From Tubulanus polymorphus (taxonomy: Eukaryota; Nemertea; Palaeonemertea; Tubulaniformes; Tubulanidae), in NCBI RefSeq assembly GCF_964204645.1, contig NC_134025.1, forward strand, positions 8,747,001-8,811,000: DNA of 64,000 nucleotides. The letters are read 5' to 3'. Numbering within the stretch: position 1 is the stretch's first letter; each line of letters opens with the position of its first letter. The translations under genes were made by a program, and so were the position numbers. Below the pieces are notes generated by a model, which saw only the letters and a list, made by a program, of their open reading frames with translations, was not told where the DNA came from and ran no database searches. Of this stretch, positions 9,323 to 40,974 are shown in pieces.

Positions 9323-9447
9323 GTTTTTCCTTCCTTCATCGTGAAATACCGGATCTTAACATACTGCTGAAATAATGTGTGCCTGCAGATGTGGTGTAAT
9401 ATGTTAACCATGACACGGTCAATCATATTTCATTTTGTGCTGAATTC

Positions 9448-9651
9448 CATTTTCGAAAGGTGTTAAATGATTGTTGAAAGCCCTTGAAAAAGTTAATTTC
9501 TTCTGTTTAAATATTTCACTTATCGTCTATATCAGAGTATAGTAGCTCCATATTGGAAAGGTGTTAAATGATTGTTGAAAGCCCTTGAAAAAAATTATTT
9601 CTTCTGTTTAAATATTTCACTTATTGTCTATATCAGAGTATAGTAGCTCAA
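9448..9651. repeat. Two-copy tandem duplication, 102-bp period
   Basis: GAAAGGTGTTAAATGATTGTTG starts at 9455 and again at 9557, and similarity continues through TCAGAGTATAGTAGCTC at the end of each copy. Only a few bases differ. No open frame or known element is involved. Confidence 0.85.
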
Positions 9652-10918
9652 ATATTCTTTGAAATGAAGATAGTTTACCTTTGTTTGAATTTTGTCAATT
9701 GGTCGTTTTTTGTCAAAAGTTTATCAGCATGTTTATCACTACTATCCAGGTATATTTATCTTGTTGTATACCACCGATTAGCATTTAAACCTATCACAGT
9801 CAACCCAGCGGTTTTACGCACAATATTTTTGAATCCCATTTACAAAACCTTAGTTCATTGTAAATTAGAATGATGTTTAGTTAGATATCTAGCGCCTTTC
9901 GTTTATCCGGCACGGGAGGGTTCAAATTGTACGTTGGCCGATTATGCCATCTTTAACCACCCTCCCCCTTGTATGATCTTAGTACTGGTAATTAATTTAT
10001 CGACTCCCCATGACAATGCGTGATGACAATCCCTCATCTACCTTCAAATTCAACATGATAACGTCAGGACTTCGATAGCCTAATGATCAGTACCCAATGA
10101 AACAATTGATCAGATCTCTCAGATGTGATCTACGCTCTCACATTGCTTTCCCTGATGCGGAGGATTTTAATTTCATTTACTATGAAGAAGGATAAGAGTG
10201 TTGTGATGGGTGAACTGTAATTTATCTTTGGATTAAGAGATTTAACATTCTTTTCTAACCCCTCCATTCCGCACATTTGAAGTTAGTAAGTACTGGGGAG
10301 AATTTTTATCCCCCTTCCCAAAAATAATACGTACTATTCAAGAATTTTTTGAGTTGACTCCTGGCTGTGTACATAATTATTATCTGTTTATAAAATAAAT
10401 ACATGTTCCAGTCAATGATTTCTCCGGCTTTTCTTATTTATAGTCGTAACACTGCAAATTTCTGTAGTCAAATGTCTAATTTAGCAACTGTCAGTATAAA
10501 ATCCTTCAGCAAGATCAAGGCTCCATTACTACATTTTATCTGCATGTCATCTCTCTGTTGGATTTTGGATTTAAGTTGAAAAGTGGTTCTAAGCATGTAA
10601 GGTACCAGTAGTTGGGATTGAGGTTTACTGACACCGTCGTCCGCTGGGGCCTACATGTATTTTGTCGATTTGACAGGATATCTTCATATCACATTGAGGA
10701 TGCAAAATACGATGTAAAACATGAACAATACATTTATTCAGGGAAGTATGTATATTTTTGAAAGCTGTGACTAATCCAAGCATTAATCAAGTTATTCACT
10801 ATCCATAATACCAGGAATGCAAATTCTACTGTAGACTCTGCCTTACACACCAGTCAGTAAAATTTTCGGAAATATCTCTGACTTGTTATTCGCCAAGTAC
10901 ATGGCACTATATTGTTTA

Positions 10919-14385: not shown

Positions 14386-15511
14386 ATGTCGAAGCCAATA
14401 CCACCGCGATCCCGCAAATCGTATCAGCGCATGTTATCCTACGAGCATTGGTTTAACGAATCTGACAAGAAAGGCCCAGTAGTTAGCAGCGAAGATTATT
14501 TTTCGTCTAAGGATGTAGCGCGTTTATGGGTGGAAACACGCCGAAAAGACCTATTGCTGGCGCTCGGCCTGCTGCAAATGTATCCGAGTTTGATACAAGA
14601 TGAAGCGATGGACGACGTTTGGAGGTATCTGAAACCGTATCTGCGCGATGAATATCAACGGGAACCGCACGGTTTGTCCGATGATGAGGATTTATCTGAC
14701 GAAGAGGATGAACTTTATCACCAAATGTTCAGCTGTCCATCACTGTATATATGCACCGACCACAGCCTAGATTCTTCGAAAAGCGACGGCGATGGAGCCG
14801 AAAATGTTGATTCAACAATGCTGAGACCTATTACCGCGTGTCTTTTGCCATTCTTCTTTGTGCATCTTGGCCCAAATGTTTCAGCCGAATCGGACGAAAT
14901 CGATGGTGAATTTTCAAAATTGTGTTCTAGTATATCCGATGCGGATGTCTTTATATTCATTGCAACCGAACGATCTCTGAGAAATCAACACTGTATAAAC
15001 GCCATATGTATTGCCCAGTTCTACGACATTCCGCTGATCATGATAACAGAAACTGGGTTTTCTTTGCCTACGGACTGCGCTAGACCAACCGTTTTGAAAT
15101 ATCTGGGAGTCGACACATGTTTGGATACCAAAAACGAGGAAGAGTACATGGAATTACTATCCGATGGTGAAGATGACTCTTTTTTCATCACAGAACTCAA
15201 GACAACACTTTCGCTTCTCAGTGAAGTGTCGCTTAGCGGCGAGGCAATAGGTTTAGTGGATTTGAAGCGGCTCTTACTGCTAGCACACTCGGAAGCAATT
15301 ACATATGATCTACAATTTCATAAAGGATCAATTTTGCATTTGTACGAACGCTTGCAAGTATTTCTCGGAGGAAAAGCGAAAGAGATACGAAATTATCTAA
15401 TAACTGATACATCAGAGAATTCTGACCATGCTGAAACGAAGTTGATGGCTGAAAGTATGGAGCAAGTTCCACTCCGGGGAATGCTCCGAAGAGGACCCAG
15501 TGATGAATCTG
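14386..15511 (+). CDS. Giant gene exon 1: start, modules A1 and B1
   Basis: The ATG at 14386 opens a basic start (MSKPIPPRSRKSYQRM). It is the only exon whose first Met is not preceded by a splice acceptor carrying on the phase-1 frame, so I chose it as the start. Module A reads VARLWVETRRKDLLLALG and ends PSLIQDEAMDDVWRYLKPYL. An acidic linker (DDEDLSDEEDE) leads to module B, with SLYICTDHS, LLPFFFVHLGP, SDADVFIFIATERSL, QHCINAICIAQFYDIPLIMI and a closing LYERLQVFLGG. Donor G|gtaagc at 15511/15512. Confidence 0.85.
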
Positions 15512-18500
15512 GTAAGCATTCCATTTTCATAAATTAAGTTTCGATTTTTATCTAAAAAAGCAGTTTTTTCTTAGTAAAGGGTAATTTTTTTCAGAACGTT
15601 TACGAAAATACAAATCTTATAGACTTTTGAGACTGTTTGAAGAATTGCGGAAACGTGATCTACCATCTGGAGTTTTCCCTACGTTTTCTGGCGCCCAAGA
15701 CTGGATCGAGCGGCACAAGGATGATCTTTTGATTGGTATGAAACTTTTAAGATATTACCCTGAATTGAAAGATGACGATCTATTCAGTAATATTTGGCAG
15801 TTTTTAGAACCATTCATAAAGCAGGATTGTTTTTGGCAGCAGTATGCCGAGGAGGATACAGGCCGACAATCACCTTTTCGTCTTCGAACACCTATGCCGC
15901 TTCCAAGTGTACGTAAAGGTATTCCCGTAGTTTACATATCAGGCGAGAATGAAGATATAGATGTACTTTCAGCGAAATCCATCAATCCTGATGAAGGTGG
16001 CCGTAAAACATTGGAAGAGATCTCACATTCTTTACTGCCCTATTGTTTTGTTCACGTGGGACCGTCGATAGGTGAACATAATATGAGCAACTATTCGGAA
16101 ATGTGTTCTCGTATCATAAACTGCGACTTGTTCATTTTTATGCTGAACAATGGATCCCTAAATGTTGATAGTTTATGCGCGCTGGAAATTGCTCGTCATT
16201 ACAATGTGCCTACAACTTTTATCAAAGAACTCAAATTTTGCGTCCCTACTGAAGTGGTAAAACCACGACTGTCGGCTTTCCGTTTGAAAAGCAAAGTGAT
16301 TCCACAAAGCCAAATCGACGCTTTGGCCAGCGAAAAACCTATTTGTAGGAAATATGGAATAAGCGCTCCGACGGAACAGTTTGATCGTTTGAAACATAAT
16401 ATTGCTTACGTCACTGATTATGAGAAATTACCGGATGACGACGAAAACAGCATTCATAAAATGTTGTTGGATGCATCAAAAACTGCGATGATCTATGAAA
16501 GTTTAGACTACGAATATTCGACGCAGATGCTGTATAAACATTTGTCGAAAATCCTTGGAAATATTTTCCCGATAATCAAAAACGACGTGCACGAGGTCTC
16601 TGGTGATCCTTCGGATGAAGTTTATGAATTTGAAGCCGATGATGATAAAAATGAATTTGAAATAGTACAAGACATCGGTAAGTTCCGTTCACAAAAAAAT
16701 AAACTGTAGTCAACTGTATCACTTATGTATATGTTTAAACCATTCCAGCTCTAATGATCTTAAGAACTGCCTAGTGATCATACGAAAAAATAAAACACGC
16801 TTGAGTTTCGACTTGTATAATCTATTGGTTTTCAGAAACCCACTCGCAGGCTGAACACTTGACGAAATCATCCTTGCCATCGACACCAGAATTCCCTTCA
16901 CTAAGTGGCGCTCAACAGTGGCTGATTCGACATCGTGACGACATCAATATAATGGCAAAACTTCTCGGAATTTACCCTAAATTGATTGCTGACCCAAAAT
17001 TAGATCTACTTTGGGAAGCAATAAAACCATACCTCCAAAAACAGTATCAAGACATGCGAGAGATTATGTCCTACTTGACTGTCGAAACTGATGAAAATAT
17101 GGTTGCTGACTTCCCCGGAACAACATATTGTATTCCAATGATTTTCATGTGCGGAGATTCTGATGATATATCGGCATTGAGTGAAAATAGGCTCGTAAAT
17201 GAAACTAGCGAAGTCGTACAATTGATGTCACTATCTTGCCTATCATTTAGCTACGTCCACAAGGGAACTGCTTCTCCTGGTTCAGCAGACGATTACGCTG
17301 AATTGCGCGGTCAAGTTCTAAACAGCGACGTATTCATTTTCTATGCATGCAATGAGTCTTTGAAAAATGATGATTGTTTGAGAGCAGTGAGTTTTGCCAT
17401 CATGTACCGAATACCGATGATCTTAGTCAGAGATTCCAAATTTAATTTTCAAGATGAAATATTAGAGAATGGCCTGATGATATTCGATAATGACATGAGA
17501 GCAGCCATGTTGGATTGGTTCATCTCTGAAAACAATGATGCCGTTGTATGGAATAGAAACTTCTATTTGCCTAGCATTCTACGTCTTTATGCCAAATTGA
17601 CGCACTATTTGGGCGAGGTATGTAAAGCAAACCAACAGAAGTTAGTTGAATATATGAAATCCGGACCAGAAATAAAATCCAGGTCATCAATCACTCGGCG
17701 AAAAAGTAGTACAGATTTGATGGCAGTAAACCGAAGACCGGGCCTGAATATCGACGATGCCTTTCTTCCACTGATCAGAGAAGAATCGGGTGTATTGACA
17801 AGACCTTCGACACCTGTTACCCCTACCGAATCAGATGACGATGATACGTCTAAACATAAAATTCTTATTCGTAAAGAATCGAAAGCTGTACTTAGTGCTC
17901 TTCATAGCAGAATCGGTAATGTATTATCATGTAAACATTATGAATCAAATGGTTTATGATCAAATTATATTGCATCTGATATAAGTATTCTAATAATCAG
18001 GATGCCTCATTTACAACGCAGTTAAACCTTAGTTATTGATTCAATTGTCTTTCAATTTGATCTCATTTATGTATTCATATTTGTTGAAGTGTATGCATCT
18101 TTTTCTTGCTTCAGACGTTGGTTATAGACGTGCCTTTACATCTATGAAAGAATACGACGCTTGGAGAACGAAAGAAGTTCCACTGGGTACGTTCCCTAGC
18201 TGCGAAGGTGCGCAGAAGTGGATCGAGTGCAGAATGGATGACATCAAACTCGGAATTCAATTGTTCAAGAAGTACCCATGCCTTATACTGGAACCACTGG
18301 TTGATGACGCATGGAATGCTGTTGCTCAGTATTTAATTGATACATATCGCTATCGCCGGACCGAAACCTGGCGGTATAGATCCGACTTGGAAAACCACAC
18401 GCCATACGTACCTTCTATTTTCATCTGTCGCGACGGTTTCGACGTCGTTGATGTCATTACGAATTCGCAGCGTGAAGTAAATGCAACTTTAGATAGAATG

Positions 18501-21500
18501 GTGAAAATTCTCTCGCAGTTTGGATTTGTGCACTCCGTACCCGTATTACCGATTGGAAGTGATAGCTACACAGCAATCGCTAGCAGAGTCGCCAACAGTG
18601 ACGTGTTCATTTTCGACTTGAACGAAAAGACTCTGAAGAACCAGCACAGCATTACTTCACTCGCAACGGCAGCTTTCAACAGAACACCCATTATAATGCT
18701 CAGGGAGTCGAAATTCCAGCTTCCCGATATTTTCATTCAACCAAATATACAACGAGAACTTTCCAAGACGAAACTAAGACGGCAAAGTACTCGGTCGAAA
18801 TTAGTTCGTCGCCAGTCATCGTTTACCATGTCCGGAGTGTCGGATCGACCAAATGTAGATATTGAAGAAATCATTAGGTCTGGGTATGATGACGCACTAA
18901 TCTACTACCCATCATTTCATTTGTCTGTACTATTACAACTGTATGACAAGTTAGCGTTGTATCTCGGTCCGATTTGCTTACAGACGAAAGATAGATTAAT
19001 GAAAATGTACGACGAACAGTTCAATAACGAAGATGAAAGCGATTTTCAGATTGTGGAGGATAGTGCACACATTGCTGCTCCTCTCCACCGAGTACAGATC
19101 TCTATAGATAATGACGAGGCCACACGATCGTCCGAGGATGATGGTAAAATTCTAGACCATGATCTTAACGAGACGATTAGAGATGATCTGAGTAGTTTCA
19201 ATGATATGCGTGTCTCTAACGATATAGCTTCTGAACCTTGCACGGCCGAACTAATGAATTCGAGCGCTGACATCATAGACAACGGTGACGAGGCATCGCA
19301 TAACGATAGCGATGAACATTTTTCATCCAGTTATGATGTTGAGGAAAATGGACGAAATCTCTACAGTGAGCAAACAAATCTCGGTAAGCTTGATCGTATG
19401 GATAGAAAAGAATCTAACATTCAAGATGAATGAATTGAATTGTAAATAATTTTTGTGAACATCATCAACTACATGTATGTACGCGTATGCTTATTCGGGT
19501 TACATGTTTATCGTTTTATAGATAAAAACACTGATCAAGAACAATTGAAATCACTCGATGAACAATCATATTTTCGAGTACGGGAGATTATATCAGACGG
19601 ATGGCAGTCTGATGATGAAGATTCAAGAGCTGGTAGTATAATAAATCTGATAAATAATGAAAAACTGTACACTCCACCTCAATCACCCTCACCGACAGGT
19701 AAATACTCTTCGGCATCATAACCTCTCTATATCTGTTATTTCATGAATAAAAAAGTTTGAAAACTAAAACGATTAAAGATGAGACATCGGCATGGTCAGT
19801 TACATACATGTATGTATTTTCTGTAGCGTGCCATTGTAGTTAATCAAGATGGCAAATTAATTAACGAGATCAATACCTCCTATACCGCTCGTTAGCTACA
19901 CAGCTTCACTATTATAGATGATAATGATACACAGTATCAGCTGGAGCTGGAGGGCGTGTCAGGTATTTTAAATAGACTATTGCATTTTGTATTGATCATC
20001 CGTGTTCTATCTACTTAATCCAGAACAAACATTGAATGACGCGCTCAAACAGTCTCCCTCACGTTTGCCATACGACGAGGACAGACTCGAAGGAATTCAG
20101 TTCAGAGCAACGGTTCGACAGCCATCGCTCGACGTTACGAATACAACTATCAATATTGGATATACAGAACTTCGCAACGATGCAAGTACATTTGACATTG
20201 ACGTTCAAGGCTGCCTTCTCAAGTTAACGAATGGAGACGTTCGTGATAGAAGATGCGCGTCAGAGGAGTGGCAAACTGATGACGAAAGAAGCACTGCAAG
20301 TATAAGTTCAGTTTGGCCAAGAGAGCCATCGCTTCCAACCGAAGACCATCCGTCGTCTACAGGTAAGTTGAAAAGAAAAGTCAAACAATTTAGATTTTAT
20401 GTTCATCGATAAATCGATTGATAAAAGCAATGTAGCAGTATAGATCTACTAAATATTTCAATGATGACATATCTCAGTATTTGGCAAAAATTACATGAAA
20501 TTTATGGGTGATCTGATAACGTTAAACTCACATTGAAATGAATACGTTTTTGAATGGTTACTTTACCAGATATGGATACCGAAAAAAAAAGAATTGATGA
20601 AGTGATGACGAAATTTTCAAGTGCCGATACGTTAATACCTGTCCAGCAAAAGTGTGAAACGAATGACCTTCTTCAATATTCTGATAAAGAAGAGAATATC
20701 TCTGAGTTCAATATGTCTGGGAAACGATATGGCGAAAGCAAATGTGCATTCGAAGATTTAGAACACAAATGTGACGTGAAAGATTTGATAAATATGAAAG
20801 ATGAAACACAAGTTTCGATCAATGATGACACGATGGGAATCGACAGGAATGATATTTATCGTGAAGTTGGAAGCTATCAATCGCAAGAATCTGTAATCAA
20901 TGGGAATGAATGTGTAACTGCTCACGAAATTGAAAAACGCTCAAGATTATCTGGTGATAGTGTTAATTTGAATACAATTTCTAGCATTAGCGAAAATTTA
21001 ACAGATCCGCTAAAAGGCGTTGCCGAATCTTGCGTCAGAGAACAGAAGATAGAATTCGTTGACGATCTTATTTTCATCGAAGTTGAAACACCAGTCGAAC
21101 CTTCACTCATGCTCGGTGCGTCGGACGTAGAATTTGATACGATGAAAAGTGATTCCGTCAGGCACAAAGTAAGTAACATCGATGGGATCGATGAAGAATC
21201 TGCTATGGATGACGTCGATAGAAATGTAGTATCGAAGAATCAACGTGAAACAGGAGAAGTGAGTGACATGCCAACAGATAGCGGATTAAAATCTGAAGAT
21301 GATGCCTCCGTTTTCAAGGCAATCGATACGGCTGATGAAATGGACGATAATTTGTTCGGATCAGGAGAAGAGAACGGCGCAAAGTCAACTAGCAAAAATA
21401 AATTGGAACGAAGTGACTCGTCTTATTCTGACGTTATGTCGCATAATATTTCAGAAAAGTATGATTTAGAAGAAAACGAACCTACAGGCGACGGGGAAAG

Positions 21501-24500
21501 CATAGAAAAAGTATTGGAGAAGGATTTTCTGACTGATGACTGCAAAGGCAAGTTAGTTGAAGATTTATCAGATGAATGTAAGCACGTAACGGGGACACAA
21601 GATATGCACAGTTTTCAGTTATCGCACAATGATATATGCGATGACAAGGAACTAAGCGGTCACTCGATAATCAGCAAACAGTCAGCATCATTTGTTATTT
21701 GGAATGATCATTCACGGGCATCAGATATCAATGATTTTGCTGAAAACTACGTACGGAATTGGAGATCTGATGAAATTGCTGATACTAGACAAATGTCTGA
21801 AAACTCATTAAAAGTTGCCATAAATGAATGTAATTCGCTAGAGAATATTCCAAAAATATCCGACGAAATTGTTGATAACTTTGATACTGATTCGTTGGAA
21901 AAAGCAAGACTTTCGGCTTTCTCAGCGAGCACCGAAGGTGGCAAGGACTGTTTGTATTTCGACAACGATTCTCTCGAGGAATTACCTATGAATAATCATC
22001 ACTTACACCAAGTATTTGGATTATCAAATCACAAAGGTTTGTTTAGCTTTCATATTCATCCTGCAAATCTAAAATCTACAGTGGTGTCAAAATATGTTTC
22101 AAATGTCAGTTTCAGGTTCCAGTAACTCACAACTTGAATGGACAGATAAATCCATTGCTAAAGATTGGTTGTGCAAAAATCAAATGTACGTCACGAAAAC
22201 AATGGAAACTCTAAACAGATATCCAGACTTACTCGATGATATCGGCATGAATGGTTGGAACATAACAAAAAAGCCTAGCAATAGCTCTGTAGGTAGGCCA
22301 AATGTCTATCTATGCGGTTACGACAAGGCTTTAGATCCAAAGATGCCAATAATGTTTCAGCAACCTAAAGCGCTGGATCAAATAACCAAAGCATTAACCC
22401 CTTATTGTTTTGTTCACCATGGGCCACCACAAACTGCAAATACCAGCGAACAATTAAAGGATTTGGTCGAACAAGATGTGTCGAAGTCTGATATTTTCAT
22501 ATTTTATCGCAATGAATTTTCATGTATCGATCCTATTTCCCTTTATGCCCTGGCACTTGCTGAAGAATATAAGAAGAAAGTATTTTACATTTCCGACAAG
22601 GAATCAATGGTCATCGGGAAAACCAATAAAAAAGTGATCGATACCAAGACTACAGTAGACAAGGAGATAATGGAGTTAGATTATGTTGTGAGTGACCTAA
22701 GGGAAGAATTAGAACAAATCAATGCAGACTCATTCCTGCATGAAAACGGTACATTGGATTTTGAAACACTGAAGGCGTTTCACAATGCTTTAAACAGTTG
22801 TTTAGATGGTTTATTTGATCTAGAAGAGGAAAAGATAAGAAATCTATTCGACGAAGGTTGCTTAGCAGATTCACGGAATGATGAGGAAAAAAAACTGAGA
22901 AATATCCCCCTGATCCACGTTTGTATGGGAGAACCAAACATCACAATTGCGTGCGGTGACTCTAACCTTCCTAAGGGGATAGAAAAAATACTTCGCGTCC
23001 TAGCCCCGTACTCTTATGTCCATATTGGGCCGACGTACGGTGGATTCGGCGACGACAGGGAGAAATCATATGCTTCGATCTGCGAAAGTGATTTAATGGT
23101 ATTCGTTATGAACGACATGAATCTCGTCAGTCAGGCGAGCATTAATACTCTCTACTACGCTTATGGGCAATCCTTGCCGATCATTTACATCAGAACTCCG
23201 GAATTTGAACTGGACGAATGTGCGTCTCCAGATTTATATGAATTACGCGAACAGCCAGGATTTAAAAGTGACATCAACATCATAGATATCCTTTCAGAAG
23301 GTCATTCAAATGCTGTTGTATACGATATCAAAGCAAATGCGGATTCATTGGTTACGTTCATGGAAAAGGTGGCAGATGTCTTAGGAGGAAGAATGGAAGA
23401 TATTTTGATGGATGTTAGAATTGCAGCAGAAATAAACAATTCAAATGCTCTGATGGCAAGTTCTTCGTCACTGAGGTGTTCGGAGAAAATCGAGGCCATG
23501 TATTCAGATCTCGAACATCTAACGCACGAGGAAAGAGTACAAAGAATATCTGCAGGTAGAGTTAGTTGTGTCATAATGGCACTCTCATATATTTTGACAT
23601 TACATTATCTAATGGGACTTTGTTTCATGTTGCCTTCTTTATTTCAGTTACCCCGAATTTGCCTATGTCAACGCTTGATGCAATCGCCTGGCTCGAATCC
23701 AAAGAGAGAAACAATGCTATATATGAAGCAATCCTTACAGACCACGAGGAGTTACTCGGTCATTCGTGTTTATGGGAACTACAGAACATTTTCACGAATG
23801 CCAAAGAAAGGAAAGAAAAATTTGGTAAACTTGATCGTCCTTTAGTAATAATTTGTGCAGAAAACCTCAGTGAAATTCCAGGTTCGGAAGAAATGCTTAG
23901 TTCCATATTACCACACGGCTTTGTACACATCGCGTTTCAAAATCAGTCTAAAACGTATCCTAATATTGCTGATGTTCACCTACTTGTTTTCTTTATGGAC
24001 GAGGCATCCTTGAATAACCAGAATTGCATAGACATGCTATGTTTAGCAAAGTTTTATCTAATTCCAACCACATTTATTCGCAAAGCCGACTTTGTGCCCA
24101 ATAGCTGGTTGCCTCCACAGATAAGTGTTCTGCCCAGAGGAGGAAGCAAATCTCACTTTGATGAGATAATTGATGTTATGCAAATTGTAATGGATGGATT
24201 CGAAAATTCTACAGTATATGTTGATTATCTGGAAGAAAAAGCTCTGTATGAATGGGCCAATATGATTCCCATATATATGCTTGGCAAAGATGTCTTTGAT
24301 TCATTGCAACAACTTTTCGATCGTAAAGTGTTCAAAGAAAAAAGAATTTCGCTAAAAAGTAAGATATCAATTTTCAGCCGTAGTTTTAAAGGTTGTGCCT
24401 TTCTAATTTGAATCAATGAAATAATTTTACCAATTGCAGACCTTCCTGAATATCCTTTAAATGAAGAGGACGCAGAACAATGGCTATTCTCAAAGCAAGA

Positions 24501-30500: not shown

Positions 30501-33500
30501 AGAATTCGGGGAATTAAAAGCTGAAACATGTCTGAAACATTTGCCTGGATCCTTCAATACAACGGTTGAAAGTGTAACTATGATTGATGGTCATTCGTCC
30601 ACTGATAATGCCGAATATATTCACAAAAGTGTCATGACAGGTAACCATTGAAGAGCTTTTTGATGGTGTTTAATTTTGTCCCATTCACATTGTTTAATGC
30701 GTTCTATTTGCAGAGTATCCAAGAACCTTTTCCGATCTCGAAAAAGCCCGTGACTGGGTGAATTCTAGAGCAGATGATATCTCAATAATGAAATCTATAA
30801 TGACTGAATTTACTGAACTCAAAGACGATTCATGCTTGAATGATTTATTAGTATCTTATCAGACTCAAGAAGAAAATCACTCTGATACAGACATCAAAGA
30901 AGGTTCTGATACAGAAGCTAAGATCAACTTACAATATAACAAAGTTCTTATGTGTTGCGACGAACTGAAATCGAATGAAAATTGTATCAGTCGAATTCTT
31001 GCGAATAATTCTTTTCTACAAATTTCAACCTGTGATCGACCAATTCAGACTGATATTTATAAACAAATATCCACAACAAACCTTTTATTATTTTTCATAA
31101 GTGCAAAAACTCTGAATGATCAGAATCACATAAACCTGCTATGTCTAGCTCAGTATTATAATAACCCGACGATATATTTGATGGAAAGTGGTTTCGAACC
31201 AGAGGATTGCACGTCACCAGATGTATCTATGTTACCAAACGACGTCGATCAGGAGCGATTCACCGGCGAAATCGATATCGGAGAAATCCTCACAAATGGA
31301 ATGGATTGCTGTATCGAAATTACGAAACGAATTGATGAGAGCACGTTGGATACGATAGTGAAACGGATATCGGCATCGCTTCATCTCGAGGACTTCAGTT
31401 TGAAAAACTTCGTACCAGAAGAAGATGTGAATATTGATGCTTGTACTTCGACTGCTGATCTAGAAAGTGATAACGATGCCACTTCTGAAGGTAATACGAC
31501 TAAATGTTCCTTGGAGTCTTGACAGTGCAATGGGCCTATATCTGAAATTTTCTCATGAACTGAACTTCATTATTTATTTAAGATTGGCCCGATTTAAGTA
31601 ACATTGACGATGCTCGAAAATGGATCGTTTCCAAAGAAACCGATATTCTAATCATGAAATCAGTTATCGAAGAATTCGGGGAATTAAAAGCTGAAACATG
31701 TCTGAAACATTTGCCTGGATCCTTCAATACAACGGTTGAAAGTGTAACTATGATTGATGGTCATTCGTCCACTGATAATGCCGAATATATTCACAAAAGT
31801 GTCATGACAGGTAACCATTGAAGAGCTTTTTGATGGTGTTTAATTTTGTCCCATTCACATTGTTTAATGCGTTCTATTTGCAGAGTATCCAAGAACCTTT
31901 TCCGATCTCGAAAAAGCCCGTGACTGGGTGAATTCTAGAGCAGATGATATCTCAATAATGAAATCTATAATGACTGAATTTACTGAACTCAAAGACGATT
32001 CATGCTTGAATGATTTATTAGTATCTTATCAGACTCAAGAAGAAAATCACTCTGATACAGACATCAAAGAAGGTTCTGATACAGAAGCTAAGATCAACTT
32101 ACAATATAACAAAGTTCTTATGTGTTGCGACGAACTGAAATCGAATGAAAATTGTATCAGTCGAATTCTTGCGAATAATTCTTTTCTACAAATTTTAACC
32201 TGTGATCGACGAATTCAGACTGATATTTATAAACAAATATCCACCACAAACCTTTTATTATTTTTCATAAGTGCAAAAACTCTGAATGATCAGAATCACA
32301 TAAACCTGCTATGTCTAGCTCAGTATTATAATATCCCGACGATATATTTGATGGAAAGTGGTTTCGAACCAGAGGATTGCACGTCATCAGATGTATCTAT
32401 GTTACCAAACGACGTCGATCAGGAGCGATTCACCGGCGAAATCGATATCGGAGAAATCCTCACAAATGGAATGGATTGCTGTATCGAAATTACGAAACGA
32501 ATTGATGAGAGCACGTTGGATACGATAGTGAAACGGATATCGGCATCGCTTCATCTCGAGGACTTCAGTTTGAGAAACTTCGTACCAGAAGAAGATGTGA
32601 ATATTGATGCTTGTACTTCGACTGCTGATCTAGAAAGTGATAACGATGCCACTTCTGAAGGTAATACGACTTAATGTTCCTTGGAGTCTTGACAGTGCGA
32701 TGGGCCTGTATCTGAAATTTTCTCATGAACTGAACTTCATTATTTATTTAAGATTGGCCCGATTTAAGAAACATTGACGATGCTCGAAAATGGATCGTTT
32801 CCAAAGAAACCGATATTCTTATCATGAAATCAGTTATCGAAGAATTCGGGGAATTACAAGCTGAAACATGTCTGAAACATTTGCCTGGATCCTTCAATAC
32901 AACGGTTGAAAGTGTAACTATGATTGATGGTCATTCGTCCACCGATAATGCTGAATATATTCACAAAAGTGTCATGACAGGTAACCATTGAAGAGCTTTT
33001 TGATGGTATTTAATTTTGTCCCATTCACATGGTTTATTGCGTTCTATTTCCAGAGTTTCCAGGAACCTTTTCCGATATCGAAGAAGCTCGTGACTGGGTG
33101 AATTCTAGAGCAGATGATATCTCAATAATGAAATCTATAATGACTGAATATACTGAACTCAAAGACGATTCGTGCTTGAATGAATTATTAGCATTTGATC
33201 AGACTAAAGAAAATGACTCTGATACAGACATCAAAGGAGGTTCTGATACAGAAGCTATGATCAACATACAATATAACAAAGTTCTTATGTGTTGTGACGA
33301 ACTGAACTCGAATGAAAATTGTATAAGTCGAATTCTTGCGAATAATTCTTTTCTACAAATCTCAACTCGTGATCGACCAATTCAGACTGATATTTATAAA
33401 CAAATATCCACCACAAACCTTTTAGTATTTTTCATAAGTGCAAACACTCTGAATGATCAGAATCACGTAAACCTGCTCTGTTTAGCTCAGTATTATAATA

Positions 33501-36500
33501 TCCCGACGATATATTTGATGGAAACTGGTTTCGAACCCGAGGATTGCATGTCACCAGATGTATCTATGTTACCAGATGACGTCGATCAGGAGCGATTCAC
33601 GAGCGAAATTGATATCGGAGAAATCCTCACAAATGGAATGGAATGTTGTATTGAAATTACTAAGCGAATTGACGAATGCACGTTGGATATGATAGTTAAA
33701 CAGATGTCAGCGTCGCTTCCTCTTGAGGCCTTCAGTTTGGAAAACCTCTTACCAGATGTACTCAATATTGATGCTGGTACTTCAACTCATGAAGAGGAAA
33801 CATGTATGAAACATTTGTCAGAATCCTTCTATACAACGGTTGAAAGTGCAACTATGGTTGATGGTCATTCGTCCACTGATAATGCCGAACATATTCACCA
33901 AGGTGTCATGACAGGAAACCATAATATTCAAATCTTGAACAGCTTTTTGATGGTGTTTAATTTTGTCCTATCAATCTAATGCTTTCTATTTGCAGAGTTT
34001 CCAAGAACCTTTTCCGATCTCGAAGAAGCTCGTGACTGGGTGAATTCTAGAGCCGATGATATCTCAAATATGAAATCTATGATGACTGAATTTACTGAAC
34101 TCAAAGACGATTCATGCTTGAATGATCTATTAGTATCTTATCAGACTCAAGAAGAAAATCACTCTGATACAGACATCAAAGAAGGTTCTGAAACAGAAGC
34201 TAAGATCAACTTACAATCTAACAAAGTTCTGATGTGTTGTGATGAACTGAAATCGAATGAAAATTGTATAAGTCGAATTCTTGCGAATAATTCTTTTCTA
34301 CAAATTTCAACGTGTGATCGACAAATTCAGACTAATATTTATAAACAAATATCCACAACAAATCTTTTAGTATTTTTCATGAGTGCAAAATCTCTGAATG
34401 ATCAAAATCACGTAAACCTGCTCTGTCTAGCTCAGTATTATAATATCCCGACGATATACTTGATGGAAACTGGTTTCGAACCCGAGGATTGCACGTCACC
34501 AGATGTATCTATGTTCCCAAACCACGTCGATCAGGAGCGATTCACCAGCGAAATTGATATTGGGGAAATCCTCATAAACGGAACCGAATGTTGTATTGAA
34601 ATATCGGAGCGAATTGACGAAAGCACTTTGGATACGATAGTGAAACAGATATCGGCATCGCTTCATCTCGAGGACTTCAGTTTGGAAAACTTCGTACCAG
34701 AAGTGAATATCGATGCTTCTACTTCCACTGATGATCTAGAAAGTGATAGCGATGCCACTTCTACTGGTGATGGTAGTGTATATTTTTAAAGCTTTCATAC
34801 TTAATTCAAAGAATACACAAACGAATATCCCTTAAACTATTCTATTTGTTTCTGTTTTGCAGAAATGCGCCTAGAAATCAATGGCATCGATGATGCTCGA
34901 GAATGGATCATCTCAAAAGAATCAGATATTTTGATAATGAGATCTATCATCAAAGAGTTCGATGAATTAAAAGATGTAGCATGTTTGAAAGATCCAACTG
35001 CCTTCCACAATTCAAAAGACGAAAGTGTTGTATCTATGGTTGATGGTTATACGTCCACTGATGATGCCGAATGCACACACAAAGGTGTCATGACAGGTAA
35101 CTGGTTGTCATTTTCATGTGAAATAGCGGCACTTTTTTCTCTGTTATGAATACATATTCGTACATCTTTTCTAGAAATTTATCAAACATTCTGTAACGTC
35201 GCTCGTGACTGGGTGAAATATAGAAAAGATGATATATCAACAGTGAAAACAATCATGACCGAATTCAACGAATTAATCGAAGAGACATGTCTTAAAGATT
35301 TGGACGATTATTTTTGTCTCAGAAGAGACATTGACACCGTCGATATTTGTACCTCAACTGATATAGAATATTCAGATAAGGCGATTTCAACAGGTAAATG
35401 ATACAACCTATTCAAACATTTTAATATTTCTTGATTATTGACTATATTTCTTGTATTGCTTTTTCTTTTATTCATCTATACAGAGTTTTGCCAAGAATTC
35501 AACACAATCAATGACGCTCGAGAATGGATCATTTCCAAAGAATCGGATCTTTCTACCTTGAAAACCGTTACCTCGAAATTCAGTGAACTTAAAGATGTTG
35601 TCATTTTGAGAGACCTTTATGAATCTGTTTACAACCCAAAAGAAAATATCACCGATGCATTTACTTGTACTGACGAGGTGGAACATGAAAATAAGGCAAT
35701 TTCAACTGGTAAAAACTACTAAGAACTATACCTTTTAAATAACTATTTGTATTTTGTATATATCCGGATGAAAGATCCTAATTCTTTCCTTTCCAGATAC
35801 GCCCATGCCAACGGAAGAGAATAGACATTTGGATAGTAAAGTTCCCCTTGTTGCGATAGGAAGTCAATTTCTGTACCCATCATCACTTGACATGAGTGCG
35901 TCGTCAAAAGAAACTCTAGATCGCATTTTGACGCCTGTTTTGCCATTTTGTTACGTGTTTAGCACATCAGCTCCAATCACCAACAGTGAAGAGTTATTAA
36001 TGTTAATTGAGAAAATTCGCAACTGCGATATATTTATCTGTCATCTCGATGATGAGTATATTTACTCCCAATGCTGCATAAACTCCCTGGCACTTGCGGT
36101 GTTTTTCGACCGGCCTGTTATCATGATTCGCGAGCCTCTGTTCACCCTACCGAAATCGCCTTATCAATCGTTGCAACCGAACGTAATCGAATTTCTCACC
36201 GAGACAGCAGGCAAATATGAAAGTGACATCTTAGACTTTGTTCGCGATAATTACCAAAAAAAGGTTGGAGATTTCAATGACGTGTTATCACGCGGTGCAG
36301 ATTCTGCCTTGATTTACGATGCCGGTTTTGAGGAGATGTTCACGCTGCGTCTATACGACTGCATGGCTAACTTTATCTCGGATGACGTTTTTAAAGCTGG
36401 TGTCATAAGTGCACGTCAACGGATAAATACGTGTCGTGAGTATCTGTTTGAGAAGGAACCTACCGAAGCTTCGATTAATAGTTCTATTTTCGAAGACGAC

Positions 36501-39500
36501 GTCCGTAATTCCCTCGAGTTGACGCCGGATTCGGTCAACGCGTTGTCGACAACTTTAGATGTCGACGCAGATACATCAACCCACCCTTCAATATACGTTC
36601 AAACGGATACTGAAGTTGACACCGCAATGATAAGCAAACGTGAGTCTTCGACTATGCTAATTATAGATAACGGATCTATCGCAAATGTACGGTATTTTCG
36701 ATTAAAAAAGCTGATATATGTCGTGTACTTGATACGGTCCCATGGAGAGCACTTGGATTCAAATTTCTATTTCGATACACCATTAAGCACACCAAAGATA
36801 AAATGCAATAATTCATGATTTCAAAATTATATTGAAAAAAATAATTTCTCCGGACGGGACGTTATCATACCTTCAAATGAAAGGGCAGCCATTTGTATAG
36901 ACGGTAAGTATGTTAGATAATGCGCATGTAGTAACCTTAAACATTTCTTGTGTCTTTTTTGCCAGCAAATGATACACGTGAATACCGACCACTACGCACA
37001 GCCATCAGCCAAAAGAATTTCGACGATGCATTCAGGGAAGAATTATCTGGTGTCATCCCGACGTTGAATGGAACCAAGGAATGGTTTAGACGAAATGATA
37101 GTGTCTTTTTAACCGCAAAAAATTTATTGCTTTGCTACCCCGATATCATTGAACACGATAATGCGACTATGAGAAATTTGCAAAAACTAGTTAGCATTAT
37201 TGAACTGAAAGAATGCAACACTACAGCCCCAGATTCTGGTGTCGATTTACAATCGGATTCTACTCGTCCTATACCAGTTTTACTGATTTGTTCTGCGGAA
37301 AAGATGGATAATTCGGAATTTCACCTGAGAAGAACTGTCAGCTTTCTCAGCTCTCAAGCTTTCGTTCATGTAATGCCGAACGATTTAGAAGAGCAGTCGA
37401 CAATAACCGATTCTGTTCTAGGTGCAGACGTTCTAGTTTGTTACTTTAGTCAACGTTTTATGAAATCGCAAACCTGCGTTAGCACCCTTATCGCTGCCTC
37501 TTTCCACAATGTTCCGATCGTACTTGTACGCGGCGAACTTCAAGAATTACCGGAAGATCTATCGTACTCACAGGTTTGCTTTGAAAAGGATAATTCGAAT
37601 AAGATGTGTGAACCAGACGCAAGCAAAATTCTTCTGGACTTATGGGATACGTCAGCTTTGATACATCGTGATTTTTATTCTTCGATTGAGTCGGTGTGTA
37701 AAAGGTTAGAACCTCTTGTCGGGAATACCTTCAAATCCTTAGAAATGGAAAAATTAGACAAGGATGATGGAAACTTGCAGTCACTGAGGAGATCCAGTGA
37801 ACCATTCGTTTCATGGGCAGACGGTAGAAGGAAAAGAAAACTAGGTAGGTTCATTCTCTTATGTATGAATTACTATAGAGATAGATCATCGTGTAAATTT
37901 CGTACATATTTCCTATACATACCATTGGGAATATACTCTCGAGATGTAACGTTTCTTTGTGTGTGAATTCGCTATTCGCTGCGAAATGTTGATTAATCTT
38001 TATTTCATTTTTTTTTCATTTTCCTAATCAAAGGTTCATTGAAAGGAAATGTCATTTTCCATTCTTTAAGAGAATATAAGGATGCTGAGATAGGTATTTT
38101 TCCAACCTATGAAGGTGCCAAAATATGGCTTCACAGACGTGCGTTTGATATGGCAGTAACAGCTAATCTTTTACGAAAATACAGAAATTTAGCGGATGAA
38201 CCTGAACTTGCTGGTTTTTGGGACGTAATCAATTCCCATTTCGATAAGAACATCGAGGAAAAACGAGGTTATCCCGCACTCTTCAAAATTAATTCGTCTC
38301 CGTTTACCACACCACAAAGCTGTCCGACCCCTTTGATCTATGTCTGCGGAGATGCGACCGTGTCAGTAGAAGATGTTAAGAAATCGCGAATGACAATCAT
38401 AGACCGGATAACAAAATCACTTCTTCCGTTTTTCTATATCCACCATGGCGCATCGCTACCGACGGATGACGACGAAGTTCCGGATATTTGCTCTCGCATC
38501 ATGAACAGCGACGTTTTCATGTTTTATTTGAGCAGGTATACGCTTGAAAATCCATCATGTTTAGAAGGCTTGTGCGTCGCGATTCATTACAAAGTTCCTA
38601 TACTGATGATAAGAGAACCGAGATACAAATTACCGGAAAAGCTACCTGAATGTGAAGTTCTACAGAGACTGCGAGGCAGTATAAACGTCAAGTCTATTGA
38701 CGATGAGCTGGAATTGAATGATGTTTTACGGCTTGGACATGCGGAGGCAATAGCCTACGTTGGAGAATACCACCATGCCGGGATCGCTAGGTTATTCGAT
38801 AGATTAGAACGGTTTTTAGGAAGTGATTTCAGGGACTTGAAATTCAGATTAACGAAATACGTAAAACAGGATAGAATTCGACGAAAATTGTTGTTTAAAG
38901 AAGTTCAGCATGATTCAACACGCAAAGACAATGTCACCAGCGATTTATTTCAATATGTGACTGATTCGAGCCATTCGACTGATATAATGCACCATTCATC
39001 CCATGATATAACTCCGATTTCCATTTTGGAGGTCACCGATAAAACAGACAACGTCTTAGATGAGATAAAAACAAAGATTTCGATCAAAGATGTTGGGACG
39101 ATGACAGATCCATTAGAAGGTAACCATTCACTAAGAAATTGAAAATCATTCTTTAGATAAAAATGAATTCTCTTGTGGGCTTCTTGTTATATTCGTATAT
39201 TAGGGTAGATTTTATAATTTCCGAAATCATTATTGGTCGATCGATTTTGTTTTCAGTTGCTTCGAAATTTGACATACAGTATTGCCAGACGGATCGAGCA
39301 TTCAAACTGTGGCGAGACGAAGAACTCCCCTCTGAAGTTCTGCCAACGTTCGATGGCGCTCAAGAATGGTTCAGAAGACATCGTGATGATGCAAACCTGA
39401 GCCTCATGTTATTGCACGCGTATCCGGAACTCATTCTCGATGCGAGCATGGAAAAAGCTAAAGAATTCCTGCTTCCTTTGTTAAACGAACTTACAAAGGT

Positions 39501-40974
39501 CACGGCCATTGACTCCAAAAAGCACCAACTGAAATCATCACGCACTGATAAGATTCTGCAGCCTTTTAGTTTGTTGACGCCGTATGTTTATGTTTGCGGC
39601 GATGAATCTGATGTCACCACTATCACATGTGAAACCAGTATAACTCCAGTTACGCGATCGTTACTACCTTACTGTTACGTACATTTGGGTCCGGCTTTAC
39701 CCCCGTTTGAAAACAAATATTCCGAAATATGTTCCCGTATTATCAACAGCGACGCATTCGTTTTTGTCGTTAAAGACGAAACGTTAAACAGCCAGTTGTG
39801 TATAAATGCACTAGCGATGGCGGCATTTTTCGACATTCCTATAATAATGTTCAAGCCACCGCATTATAAACTTCCTTCGCGATATGTCCGACCAAACATT
39901 CTGTTAAACAACAGGAAATATCGTAGCAGAAACGATGGTTTGGTCGATCAGACCGATTCTGTTGCCAGGCCCCCGACACCAGTGTTTATGGACGAAGAAA
40001 TCATCGATATAGGTTGCGTATTAGCGAAAGGTCTCGATGAGGCTATCACATACACACATGGATTTAGTGTACAATGTATACTAAAACTGTACGACCGATT
40101 ATCAATTCATTTTGGAGAAACGTTTAAATTTGCCCAGAACAAATTACGTTTTCGTTCCGGTTCCGAAAATTCTAAGGAAATTCGGCGATCATTGTCAGTA
40201 GAAACTGCAAGAGCAAAAAGAGAAAGCGGCCCGAAGTTGCCACCAATTATACAAACTAAGTTCCTCCACGATCCGATTACGCAAGTACACCTCGATTCCT
40301 CATTTCCAACAGGTGGAACGAGACTATTTGAAGATCCTACGATTGTAAACAGCTCTTTCGATTCGGGTTCGTTAGAACTACCCATACTACGTCCCATTAT
40401 CAGTGGACGTGCCATGGGGAAAAAGAAAAGAACGAAAAGTAACAAATCTAACGTTTGCGAACAGAGCGATAAAGGCGTCAAAAGTGATCCGAAGAATGAC
40501 TCTAATAAAAGTCTGGAAATCAAAGGTACTAAAATTTTTCCATCGCTGCACAAGGCGAAACAGTTATTCAAACGTCCAATACTTCCGAATGTGAATAATA
40601 TTGGCCGAATTTCATCAGTCGACACGAGATCATCCGCCGATACCCAGTCTATTCTAAATAACACTATGGGTGACGATTCTGTCTTCCGTTCACCGAGAAG
40701 ACGGCGACCTCAAGACGCGAAATTCAACAAGCAAATAAAAAAGTCGCGGGACAACATCCGACCATCGACGAAAGACACTAAAAAGACTGTGTACTTACTG
40801 CATCGGGGTAAGGACAGGATGGATACGAAACTGATACCGTGGCCACCTACTGATGAAACATGGAAATACCTTGAAGACAATGTTGTCGATCCGTGGCGTA
40901 GCACTCCTATAAATTTCGATTCAGTATGCTTAGATCCAGATATTTTACAAAGCACTGATACAGACCTTCAATGA
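14386..40974 (+). CDS. Giant multi-module protein with about 21 TIR/STIR-like domains and about 28 A-Q-x-W helical modules; no named family recognised
   Basis: I assembled 32 coding exons with GT-AG borders, every intron in phase 1, giving about 7,708 residues. Exons: 14386-15511, 15595-16677, 16836-17915, 18115-19383, 19522-19698, 19918-19962, 20024-20362, 20570-22036, 22116-23555, 23648-24358, 24440-25885, 25978-26205, 26279-27052, 27135-27362, 27441-28214, 28297-28524, 28603-29463, 29544-30320, 30413-30640, 30714-31490, 31583-31810, 31884-32660, 32753-32980, 33054-33902 or 33914, 33996-34766, 34863-35096, 35175-35393, 35484-35708, 35797-36639, 36966-37844, 38034-39119, 39257-40974. Module A (about 45 residues) has the pattern GAQxWIxRxxDDI...LL..YPEL. 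Module B (about 190 residues) runs hydrophobic strand-CGD, LLPYCFVHxGP, ICSRIxNSDVFIF, SLxNQxCI, lxlAxxYxIPIIMIRE, ending in LYDRLxxFLG. This order resembles TIR/STIR domains. No signal peptide or membrane segment is convincing, so a cytosolic scaffold or sensor is inferred. The function is unknown. Splitting into two or more transcripts cannot be excluded. Confidence 0.8.
15595..16677 (+). CDS. Giant gene exon 2: modules A2 and B2
   Basis: A 361-codon cassette, phase 1 at both ends. The module A core is FPTFSGAQDWIERHKDDLL with LLRYYPELKDDD. Module B shows PVVYISGE, SLLPYCFVHVGPSI, YSEMCSRIINCDLFIFML, SLCALEIARHYNVPTTFIKE and the end piece MLYKHLSKILGN. An extended loop between the last two parts (residues PRLSAFRLKS onward) has no counterpart in exon 3. 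The C-terminal linker is acidic. Confidence 0.85.
16836..17915 (+). CDS. Giant gene exon 3: modules A3 and B3
   Basis: A 360-codon phase 1-1 cassette. Module A reads FPSLSGAQQWLIRHRDDINI then LLGIYPKLIADPKLDLLWEA. Module B: IPMIFMCGDSDDISALSE, LSFSYVHKGT, YAELRGQVLNSDVFIFYACN, CLRAVSFAIMYRIPMILVRD and LRLYAKLTHYLGE. The tail is Ser/Arg-rich (RSSITRRKSSTD) and then Thr/Pro-rich (TRPSTPVTPTESDDDD), which looks disordered and phosphorylatable. Confidence 0.85.
18115..19383 (+). CDS. Giant gene exon 4: modules A4 and B4 plus acidic tail
   Basis: A 423-codon phase 1-1 cassette. Module A reads FPSCEGAQKWIECRMDDIKL and FKKYPCLILEPLVDDAW. Module B has PSIFICRDGFDVVD, FGFVHSVPVLP, IASRVANSDVFIFDLNEKTL, QHSITSLATAAFNRTPIIML and LQLYDKLALYLGP. 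A basic insert (KLRRQSTRSKLVRRQSS) sits before the last helix, as in exons 3 and 32. The last 110 residues are acidic and low in hydrophobics. An upstream open extension from 18036 reads through the intron and is not needed. Confidence 0.85.
19522..22036 (+). CDS. Giant gene exons 5-8: acidic, probably disordered linker region
   Basis: Four phase 1-1 exons (19522-19698, 19918-19962 of only 45 bases, 20024-20362, 20570-22036) encode about 676 residues with no module A or B. Exons 5 and 7 share the short pattern W-Q-[ST]-D-D-E-x-S-x-A-[GS]-S-I (DGWQSDDEDSRAGSI and EEWQTDDERSTASI). Exon 8 is 489 codons rich in Asp, Glu, Ser and Asn with scattered hydrophobics and a weaker copy (NWRSDEIADT). The composition predicts disorder. 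The 45-base exon is the least certain piece; it keeps frame and has both splice signals. Confidence 0.65.
22116..23555 (+). CDS. Giant gene exon 9: one module A and two module B copies
   Basis: 480 codons, phase 1-1. A divergent module A (KSIAKDWLCKNQMYVTKTME, RYPDLLDDIG) is followed by a first B (NVYLCGYDKALD, LTPYCFVHHGPP, VSKSDIFIFYRNE, LYALALAEEYKKKVFYISD). A helical spacer of about 90 residues leads to a second B (PLIHVCMGE, LAPYSYVHIGPTYGG, ICESDLMVFVMNDMNLV, LPIIYIRTPEFEL, ending VADVLGG). No module A separates the two B copies, which suggests fusion or loss of a module at an older duplication. Confidence 0.8.
23648..24358 (+). CDS. Giant gene exon 10: divergent modules A and B
   Basis: 237 codons, acceptor tttcag before 23648, donor A|gtaaga after 24358. 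The A module is degenerate (TLDAIAWLESKERNNAIYEA). The B module keeps PLVIICAENLSE, LPHGFVHIAFQ, VHLLVFFMDEASLNNQNCID and CLAKFYLIPTTFIRKADF. Its strands and the C-I-D-M-L-C-L-A helix resemble the array type (exons 11-25), so this exon looks intermediate between the N-terminal and array forms. Confidence 0.8.
24440..25885 (+). CDS. Giant gene exon 11: two A-B pairs, first array-type module
   Basis: 482 codons, phase 1-1. Pair 1: EEDAEQWLFSKQEELPIYKS, then a B module with NVFICHNEEREYI, TKNDLLIYYMNEQTL and LGLAKYYGCKIFFLRETTFE. Pair 2: DIEQARNWLISKEDDISTLK, then the array-type B with KVLMCCDELKSNENCISRIL, TTNLLVFFISAKTLNDQNHI, LLCLAQYYNIPTIYLMESGF and IDIGEILTNGMDCCIEITKR. The linker ends IDACTSTADLESDNDATSEG. 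Pair 2 is nearly identical in DNA to exons 18, 20 and 22, so it is the left edge of the homogenised array. Confidence 0.85.
25978..34766 (+). CDS. Giant gene exons 12-25: tandem array of near-identical A-B cassettes
   Basis: Two exon types alternate. Long exons (774-777 bases; 13, 15, 18, 20, 22, and 25 at 771) carry module A (EARDWVNSRADDISIMKS) plus module B. Short 228-base exons (12, 14, 16, 19, 21, 23) carry only module A (DARKWIVSKE) plus the linker DGHSSTDNAEYIHKxVMTG. Exons 17 and 24 (861 bases) fuse a long exon to the tail of a short exon, with the intron and the short exon's A core missing. The unit length is 1,162 or 1,170 bases including introns. Order: short-beta-short-beta-short-fused-alpha-short-alpha-short-alpha-short-fused-delta. 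Introns are as similar as exons. All borders are phase 1. Exon 24 has lost its normal donor (see separate entry). Confidence 0.85.
26279..33053 (+). repeat. Tandem duplication array with 1,162- and 1,170-bp units (exons plus introns)
   Basis: Unit starts fall at 26279, 27441 and 28603 (period 1,162), then at 29544, 30714 and 31884, ending at 33053 (period 1,170). Units separated by a fused exon have a 941-942-bp step (28603 to 29544, and 33054 to 33996). The short exons 14 and 16 with their flanking introns differ at only a few bases, as do 19 and 21. Such likeness in introns points to recent unequal crossing-over or gene conversion, not protein-level selection alone. Confidence 0.9.
33890..33925 (+). 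other. Lost splice donor of giant-gene exon 24 with a possible in-frame substitute
   Basis: In the sister fused exon 17 the exon ends ATGACAG|gtaacc at 29463. At the equivalent place in exon 24 the sequence is ATGACAG|gaaacc (33914), so the GT is gone. Reading on reaches a stop at about 33979. Twelve bases upstream, CACCAAG|gtgtca (exon end 33902) offers a usable donor in the same phase 1, which would cost only four residues. Confidence 0.7.
34863..35708 (+). CDS. Giant gene exons 26-28: three A-only cassettes
   Basis: Exons 34863-35096, 35175-35393 and 35484-35708 (78, 73 and 75 codons, all phase 1-1) each hold one module A and a linker, with no B: DDAREWIISKESDILIMRS; NVARDWVKYRKDDISTVKT; NDAREWIISKESDLSTLKT. 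Their linkers keep the D-x-x-T-S/C-T-D...TG ending (DGYTSTDDAECTHKGVMTG, CTSTDIEYSDKAISTG, FTCTDEVEHENKAISTG). They are clearly more diverged from each other than the array exons, so they mark the older right flank. Confidence 0.8.
35797..36639 (+). CDS. Giant gene exon 29: module B without module A
   Basis: 281 codons, acceptor ttccag before 35797. It goes straight into a B module: PLVAIGSQFLYPS, VLPFCYVFSTSAP, IRNCDIFICHLDDEYIYSQC, LALAVFFDRPVIMIREPLF, ending LRLYDCMANFIS. Exon 28 (A only) just before it probably supplies its A partner. The tail has DADTSTHPSIYVQTDTEVD. The donor C|gtgagt at 36639 is phase 1 but, unusually here, follows C and not G. Reading past it gives an unspliced extension to 36818 that I do not accept. 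Confidence 0.8.
36966..37844 (+). CDS. Giant gene exon 30: divergent modules A and B
   Basis: 293 codons, acceptor gccag before 36966, donor G|gtaggt after 37844. Module A reads IPTLNGTKEWFRRNDSVFLT and LLCYPDIIEHDN. Module B: VLLICSAEKMDN, SSQAFVHVMPND, VLGADVLVCYFSQRFMKSQT, TLIAASFHNVPIVLVRGELQ, ending LEPLVGNTF. This is the copy that looks most like an ordinary TIR domain around the 'S-x-x-F-x-x-S-x-x-C' stretch. The intron before it is long (326 bases), so a small missed exon is possible. Confidence 0.8.
38034..39119 (+). CDS. Giant gene exon 31: modules A and B
   Basis: 362 codons, phase 1-1. Module A: FPTYEGAKIWLHRRAFDMAV, LLRKYRNLADEPEL. Module B: PLIYVCGDATVSVED, SLLPFFYIHHGASLP, ICSRIMNSDVFMFYLSRYTL, LCVAIHYKVPILMIREPRY, ending LFDRLERFLGSDF. 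The tail carries IKDVGTMTDPLEG. The resemblance to exons 1-4 shows that the two ends of the protein keep the ancestral cassette form. Confidence 0.85.
39257..40974 (+). CDS. Giant gene exon 32: last A-B pair and basic C-terminal tail
   Basis: Acceptor ttttcag before 39257, stop TGA at 40972-40974. Module A: LPTFDGAQEWFRRHRDDANL and HAYPELILDASM. Module B: PYVYVCGDESDVTTIT, SLLPYCYVHLGPALP, ICSRIINSDAFVFVVKDETL, LAMAAFFDIPIIMFKPPHY, ending LYDRLSIHFGETF. About 270 residues follow that are strongly basic (GKKKRTKSNKSN, PRRRRPQDAK, KQIKKSRDN), ending in a Trp/Pro-containing segment (LIPWPPTDETWKYLEDNVVD). The basic tail contrasts with the acidic exons 4-8. A long antisense frame at 40107-40664 is a shadow. 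Confidence 0.85.

Follow-up and report, generated by a model that had tools for sequence, protein, structure and literature searches.

TIR domains form weak, ordered assemblies in innate immunity and cell death. SARM1 (PMC7075850, PMC8635717) has ARM repeats and SAM domains ahead of a single TIR that carries a catalytic glutamate, and mutating that glutamate abolishes NADase activity (PMC8635717). According to PMC8635717 and PMC12133306, the non-enzymatic TIRs of MAL and MyD88 signal by scaffold assembly through weak contacts. Proteins with two TIRs are described in three further sources: the invertebrate ecTIR-DC family 6, with ARM-like repeats, a Death domain and two TIRs (PMC6836662); the twin-TIR Tolls of molluscs (PMC4929906); and Dictyostelium TirE, whose two diverged TIRs stand in tandem, escaped earlier Pfam models and accompany RCC1 repeats (PMC13142454). 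In the open-licence PubMed Central abstracts and passages that we consulted, the maximum named for any protein was two TIR domains; other literature may differ.

Here we describe a locus of Tubulanus polymorphus at 14386-40974, on the plus strand of a 64,000-nucleotide stretch of DNA (the window), whose predicted gene has 32 exons, 31 phase-1 introns and a single open frame of 7,704 residues. The gene finder was a splice-aware dynamic programming routine that allowed all intron phases, imposed GT/AG ends and worked with the earlier exon list withheld. It returned 31 exons from an ATG at 14386 to a TGA at 40974, each internal boundary in phase 1. A 45-nt phase-1 exon bounded by AG/GT (19918-19962) was missed by the program; inserting it manually brings the model to 32 exons and 7,704 aa, in agreement with the first-pass annotation of this DNA, which had claimed 32 phase-1 exons and about 7,700 residues. 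The plus strand scored 1148 with this program, whereas the reverse complement reached 32.8 and none of 20 first-order random sequences exceeded 21.9, a margin that is inflated because the codon table was trained on long ORFs of the same gene. We rejected chance reading frames on this strand and random-sequence control, which the codon table makes partly circular. We infer that all exons are carried on one transcript.

The neighbourhood of the gene contains several other features. Upstream, on the minus strand, an exon shows a sub-cut-off Pfam resemblance to an RsmB/F-type methyltransferase (E 0.0025), and downstream, also on the minus strand, lies what looks by eye like a multi-span transporter. 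Elsewhere in the window we noted a 101-bp tandem repeat (9446-9657; 2.1 copies, 91% matching), a short exon whose Pfam match to HATPase_c_3 stays under the cut-off (5040-5153, plus strand; E 4.2e-4) and an LDL-receptor class A exon (51537-51728, minus strand; Pfam E 8.7e-7).

Two modules recur along the predicted protein: A, a small helical module that usually stands before a B, and B itself. The module profiles rest on 22 rows for A and 16 for B; five near-identical array copies were left out of the B alignment. Searching the protein with these profiles gave 28 A modules (i-E 7.1e-15 or better), a count that excludes two fragments at i-E 0.84 (exon 17) and 0.37 (exon 24), and 21 B modules (2.2e-43 or better). 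The reversed and shuffled protein yielded zero A matches, and B matches that were all negative in score. The roughly 21 alpha/beta and 28 helical modules noticed earlier were thus recovered in the same numbers.

The exons, all on the plus strand, differ in what they carry. Exons 1 (14386-15511, starting at the ATG), 2 (15595-16677), 3 (16836-17915) and 4 (18115-19383, with an acidic tail) each contain A and B. Exons 5-8 form a linker region between the module-bearing exons 4 and 9: exon 5 (19522-19698), the hand-added exon 6, exon 7 (20024-20362) and exon 8 (20570-22036), a long acidic linker by composition. Exons 5, 7 and 8 had no Pfam match, and the acidic linkers (residues 1481-2195) are 22% acidic and 10% basic. 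Modules resume with A+B+B in exon 9 (22116-23555), A+B in exon 10 (23648-24358) and A+B+A+B in exon 11 (24440-25885). From exon 12 to exon 25, exons with A only (12, 25978-26205; 14, 27135-27362; 16, 28297-28524; 19, 30413-30640; 21, 31583-31810; 23, 32753-32980) are interspersed with A+B exons that the profiles and the tree described below place in an array (13, 26279-27052; 15, 27441-28214; 17, 28603-29463; 18, 29544-30320; 20, 30714-31490; 22, 31884-32660; 24, 33054-33902; 25, 33996-34766). Exons 26 (34863-35096), 27 (35175-35393) and 28 (35484-35708) again carry A only and exon 29 (35797-36639) B only, followed by A+B in exons 30 (36966-37844), 31 (38034-39119) and 32 (39257-40974), the last with a long C-terminal tail and the TGA stop.

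The earlier annotation had read B as a divergent TIR/STIR relative and proposed a structure check on a B module and an A-B pair. An AlphaFold2 model of the exon-31 pair (38087-38869), and hence of one B module, was made from 16 A-B rows (mean pLDDT 73.7, pTM 0.66). In it, B consists of alternating strands and helices, the fifth strand being just two residues long. Structural alignment of this model placed the SARM1 TIR at the top (Z 13.2, rmsd 2.2 over 127 residues, 15% identity), with a lead within 1 Z of plant RPS4 (13.1) and C. elegans TIR-1 (12.8) that amounts to a tie. Among the 50 best structures listed, rows 1-32 bear TIR domains; the first non-TIR neighbour, DNPH1, is at row 33 (Z 11.2), with MilB and a deoxyribosyltransferase close behind, down to 10.7. 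Foldseek against the PDB with the same A-B model found nothing at E 0.001 or better (best 1.2e-3). Its top matches were mostly plant, SARM1 and SPARTA TIRs together with nucleotide hydrolases (DNPH1, MilB), and its list also contains other alpha/beta folds, for example translation factors and dehydroquinase. The proposed check therefore turned up a TIR-type fold with SARM1 as best match, and the model strongly supports a TIR fold for the B module of exon 31, which the remaining 20 B copies would share.

The same neighbours could mean that B belongs to another branch of this fold group, that of nucleoside deoxyribosyltransferase/DNPH1 or of DUF4062, and is no TIR proper. DNPH1, MilB and the deoxyribosyltransferase are indeed close, and the Pfam family DUF4062 touches one of the 16 rows (E 0.045). 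We nevertheless find this improbable given that the 32 TIR-bearing rows rank higher, though by no more than 2 Z units, and that B matches a profile of SARM1-like TIRs from its own genome. In that genome the deoxyribosyltransferase family had no match and DUF4062 was found at three loci.

This kinship with TIRs of the same animal was examined in its 267.8-Mb assembly (77 contigs), where PF13676 had 41 matches at E 0.01, including 37 above the family cut-off; the comparison TIRs came from these matches. Against 15 of these TIRs together, the B profile scored 15.9, compared to at most 10.0 in 100 column shuffles (E 0.0045, probability 3%). We then divided the TIRs by eye, after seeing this 15-way result, into SARM1-like and Toll-receptor-type classes; L029 was in the set of 15 and is in neither class, and L009, which has internal stops, was not used. 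Against the four members of the SARM1-like class so drawn (L005, L006, L008 and L021), B scored 34.8 versus at most 6.8 in 100 column shuffles (E 1.6e-6, probability 80), collinear over 127 columns. The ten Toll-receptor-type TIRs gave no match (1.7, under the shuffle median of 2.4), and a mixed set of five TIRs gave E 1.5e-4 and probability 51. On their own, the six array-class B rows reached 7.4 with the own-genome TIRs, below the top full-profile shuffle score of 10.0, so their assignment as TIRs rests on their kinship with the other modules.

B fails the curated TIR models (PF01582, PF13676 and others): with the limit set at E 5, where the HMMER filters drop most matches above 0.1, Pfam and NCBIfam listed no TIR family for any of the 16 A-B rows. 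Two ThsB TIR-like models of PADLOC match the 16 rows weakly, the first in two rows (best 0.0024) and the second in one (0.04), and these matches, where placed, fall inside B. PD-T4-4_B, an unrelated-looking model, also matches one row (0.011), and the standard own-genome TIR L005 scores 7.1e-11 versus the best of 0.0024 for B. With the predicted structure of one B and the same-genome profile match in agreement, the proposed TIR/STIR relationship is supported. Our conclusion is that B is a TIR-fold domain that has diverged and is nearest to the SARM1-like class, and we place it in no curated TIR family. As a diverged TIR branch of this animal escapes the Pfam and NCBIfam models, invertebrate TIR inventories may be incomplete.

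The survey of the assembly brought further observations. Many of the TIR_2 loci L010, L022-L028 and L030 (contigs C10, C3, C6, C7 and C8) lie in long single frames of about 690-884 aa, several of them near-identical and many on C10. These look like an expansion of intronless Toll-like receptors, and L010 has, by eye, leucine-rich repeats and a membrane segment beside its TIR. L005 and L006 are SARM1-like TIR exons about 0.8 kb apart on the same strand (contig C11, 7171860-7173216, minus) and might together form a gene with two TIRs, as in ecTIR-DC family 6. Separately, contig C6 carries a run of ten Hox-type homeodomains on a single strand (5318228-5634753), ordered from posterior-type to Hox1-like and including homeodomains that, by their class signatures, look Lox5-, Lox4- and Lox2-like, which makes a spiralian genome probable. 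The assembly had no match to mitochondrial COX1.

The SARM1-like TIRs also provide a reference for the catalytic site. In profile alignments with L005, from which the register of the catalytic column was taken, the helix-C cysteine of L005 aligns with that of the exon-31 B module. L005 retains the CxxE glutamate. In the 16 aligned B rows this column holds G, A, S, T, M, I or L, and glutamate in none, and the five B copies outside the alignment have leucine there. A glutamate does occur one position before the column in the exon-31 copy and two positions after it in the exon-2 copy, which we judge to be chance. In this register, all 21 B copies lack the TIR NADase catalytic glutamate, and the variety of residues in its place suggests that the copies share no chemistry there. 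Loss of this glutamate need not equal inactivity: according to PMC13142454, an amoeba TIR with the glutamate replaced stayed active under crowding and another acted independently of its glutamate.

With every B copy lacking the catalytic glutamate, a scaffold role is most likely. The reading that we favour, giving it somewhat better than an even chance, is that a single gene encodes a poly-TIR protein of about 7,700 residues, soluble and catalytically dead, which works as a scaffold and whose B modules are nearest to SARM1-like TIRs. Twenty-one TIRs on one chain would bring weak TIR-TIR contact surfaces to high local concentration in cis, and such a chain could seed or organise the assembly of other TIR proteins, with A acting as a spacer or partner domain for B. 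As to solubility, the 19-residue hydropathy peak of 2.05 is high enough to fit a membrane segment and counts against it; the peak lies within the B module of exon 32, and we judge it to be a core element of that module and no membrane helix. The protein would then be located in the cytosol. Scaffolding is the function that we infer, and the protein may serve immunity; innate immunity and cytoskeletal assembly, the roles suggested at first, are both guesses.

A dead TIR array could also act in the opposite sense. As a dominant-negative sponge, it would cap active TIR adaptors or NADases and thereby damp SARM1-like signalling, a function made conceivable by the match of B to SARM1-like TIRs of its own genome, where L005 keeps the glutamate that the B rows have lost. 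This is the main rival to the scaffold, and we rate it as unlikely; nothing separates inhibition from promotion, and the binding to TIRs that it calls for is hypothetical. Alternatively, the B pockets might hold NAD or a nucleotide product uncut, so that occupancy is counted along the array in the manner of a ligand-binding sensor. NAD and nucleotide enzymes (SARM1, DNPH1 and MilB) are among the fold neighbours, yet with the catalytic glutamate lost and the site residue so variable, we give a sensor a low probability.

How the copies arose can be read from the middle of the gene. When all 21 B modules are placed in a tree, the nine array copies that run from the second B of exon 11 through exon 25 and are nearly identical group together (support 99/99); well-supported inner branches number 3 of 18, and most remaining forks are unsure. 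The A tree separates an end group of eight from a middle group of 20 (support 97/96). Two adjacent 1,170-bp units, the first opening with exon 19 (30413-31582 and 31583-32752), differ at just nine positions with introns included. For the eight array exons, dN/dS was 0.18-0.63 in 26 of 28 pairs and above 1 in the other two, which rest on 18 and 6 changes. The near identity of the units and the mostly low dN/dS together mark the middle as a recent, mostly constrained tandem expansion: it grew in two-exon units of 1.17 kb, for the most part under purifying selection. A simple satellite was ruled out as an account of the array, since the copies retain frame and splice sites and dN/dS is mostly below 1.

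Recent growth in copy number, the giant size and the acidic linkers are also what one might see in a repeat protein with a structural role in cilia, sperm or the cytoskeleton, in which the TIR fold would be merely a brick. We think this very improbable: the stretches scanned with Pfam contain no match to a cilia or cytoskeleton family, weak evidence given that Pfam misses B too. Returning to the scaffold, it is tempting to speculate that the gene encodes a TIR signalosome covalently, with 21 dead TIRs on one polypeptide, a copy number that sets threshold or filament length, and A as a new family. We hold this more specific proposal as a tentative possibility only. If it is true, one chain supplies the units that other cells build by assembling separate proteins, and their number is still changing through duplication of the 1.17-kb two-exon unit. 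Twenty-one TIR folds without the glutamate on one chain would offer a natural test of whether covalent linkage can fix TIR assemblies and copy number can tune them.

The earlier annotation also knew of no described family with this architecture, and our searches accord with that: no Pfam or NCBIfam family rose above its cut-off in the stretches scanned. For Pfam these comprised 20 ORFs or exons, 16 A-B rows and 22 A rows. Membership in a known Pfam, NCBIfam or PDB-sequence family was rejected, the matches being merely sub-cut-off or at chance level. When four segments of the protein were searched against the animal's own genome, this was the only locus returned, other matches among the best candidates scored having E of at least 0.34. 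Viral contigs searched with the exon-32 module and prokaryotic genome contigs searched with the exon-2 module gave no confirmed relative with the one module searched per collection. The viral structure library gave fold-level neighbours alone, none at E 0.001. For A, the model is a helical bundle of weak quality (pLDDT 73.5, pTM 0.47); Foldseek found no matching chain for it, which at this pTM is weak evidence, and none of the 22 A rows was above a Pfam cut-off. A may be a new domain family. Overall, B is a known kind of domain; what appears to be new is its copy number, its pairing with A and the loss of the glutamate from every copy.

Among described systems, SARM1 is like this protein in that its TIR is the best structural match of B, tied with other TIRs, and in that the own-genome TIRs matched by B look SARM1-like. 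It differs in having a single TIR with the glutamate, compared to 21 without it here. The ARM and SAM domains of SARM1 have no Pfam match in our protein, though Pfam also misses B and the model of A is weak, so that a diverged SAM might still be present. Nucleoside deoxyribosyltransferase and DNPH1 structures are listed for the B model at Z 11.2 and below. Toll-like receptors have LRRs, one transmembrane helix and one TIR (two in twin-TIR Tolls), whereas this protein has 21 B modules and no LRR match in the stretches scanned with Pfam. The ecTIR-DC family 6 and the twin-TIR Tolls are likewise invertebrate proteins with more than one TIR; each has two TIRs rather than 21, and neither the ARM-like repeats and Death domain of the former, unseen by Pfam, nor the receptor parts of the latter were recognised in our protein. 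TirE shares tandem TIRs that escape Pfam models, but it is an amoeba protein with two copies and RCC1 repeats, in contrast to the 21 copies here. MAL and MyD88 share the TIR fold and a non-enzymatic mode, which is the one that we propose for the poly-TIR protein. No Death domain match was found here with Pfam, and where separate proteins assemble in the MAL/MyD88 system, the units of this protein are carried on one chain.
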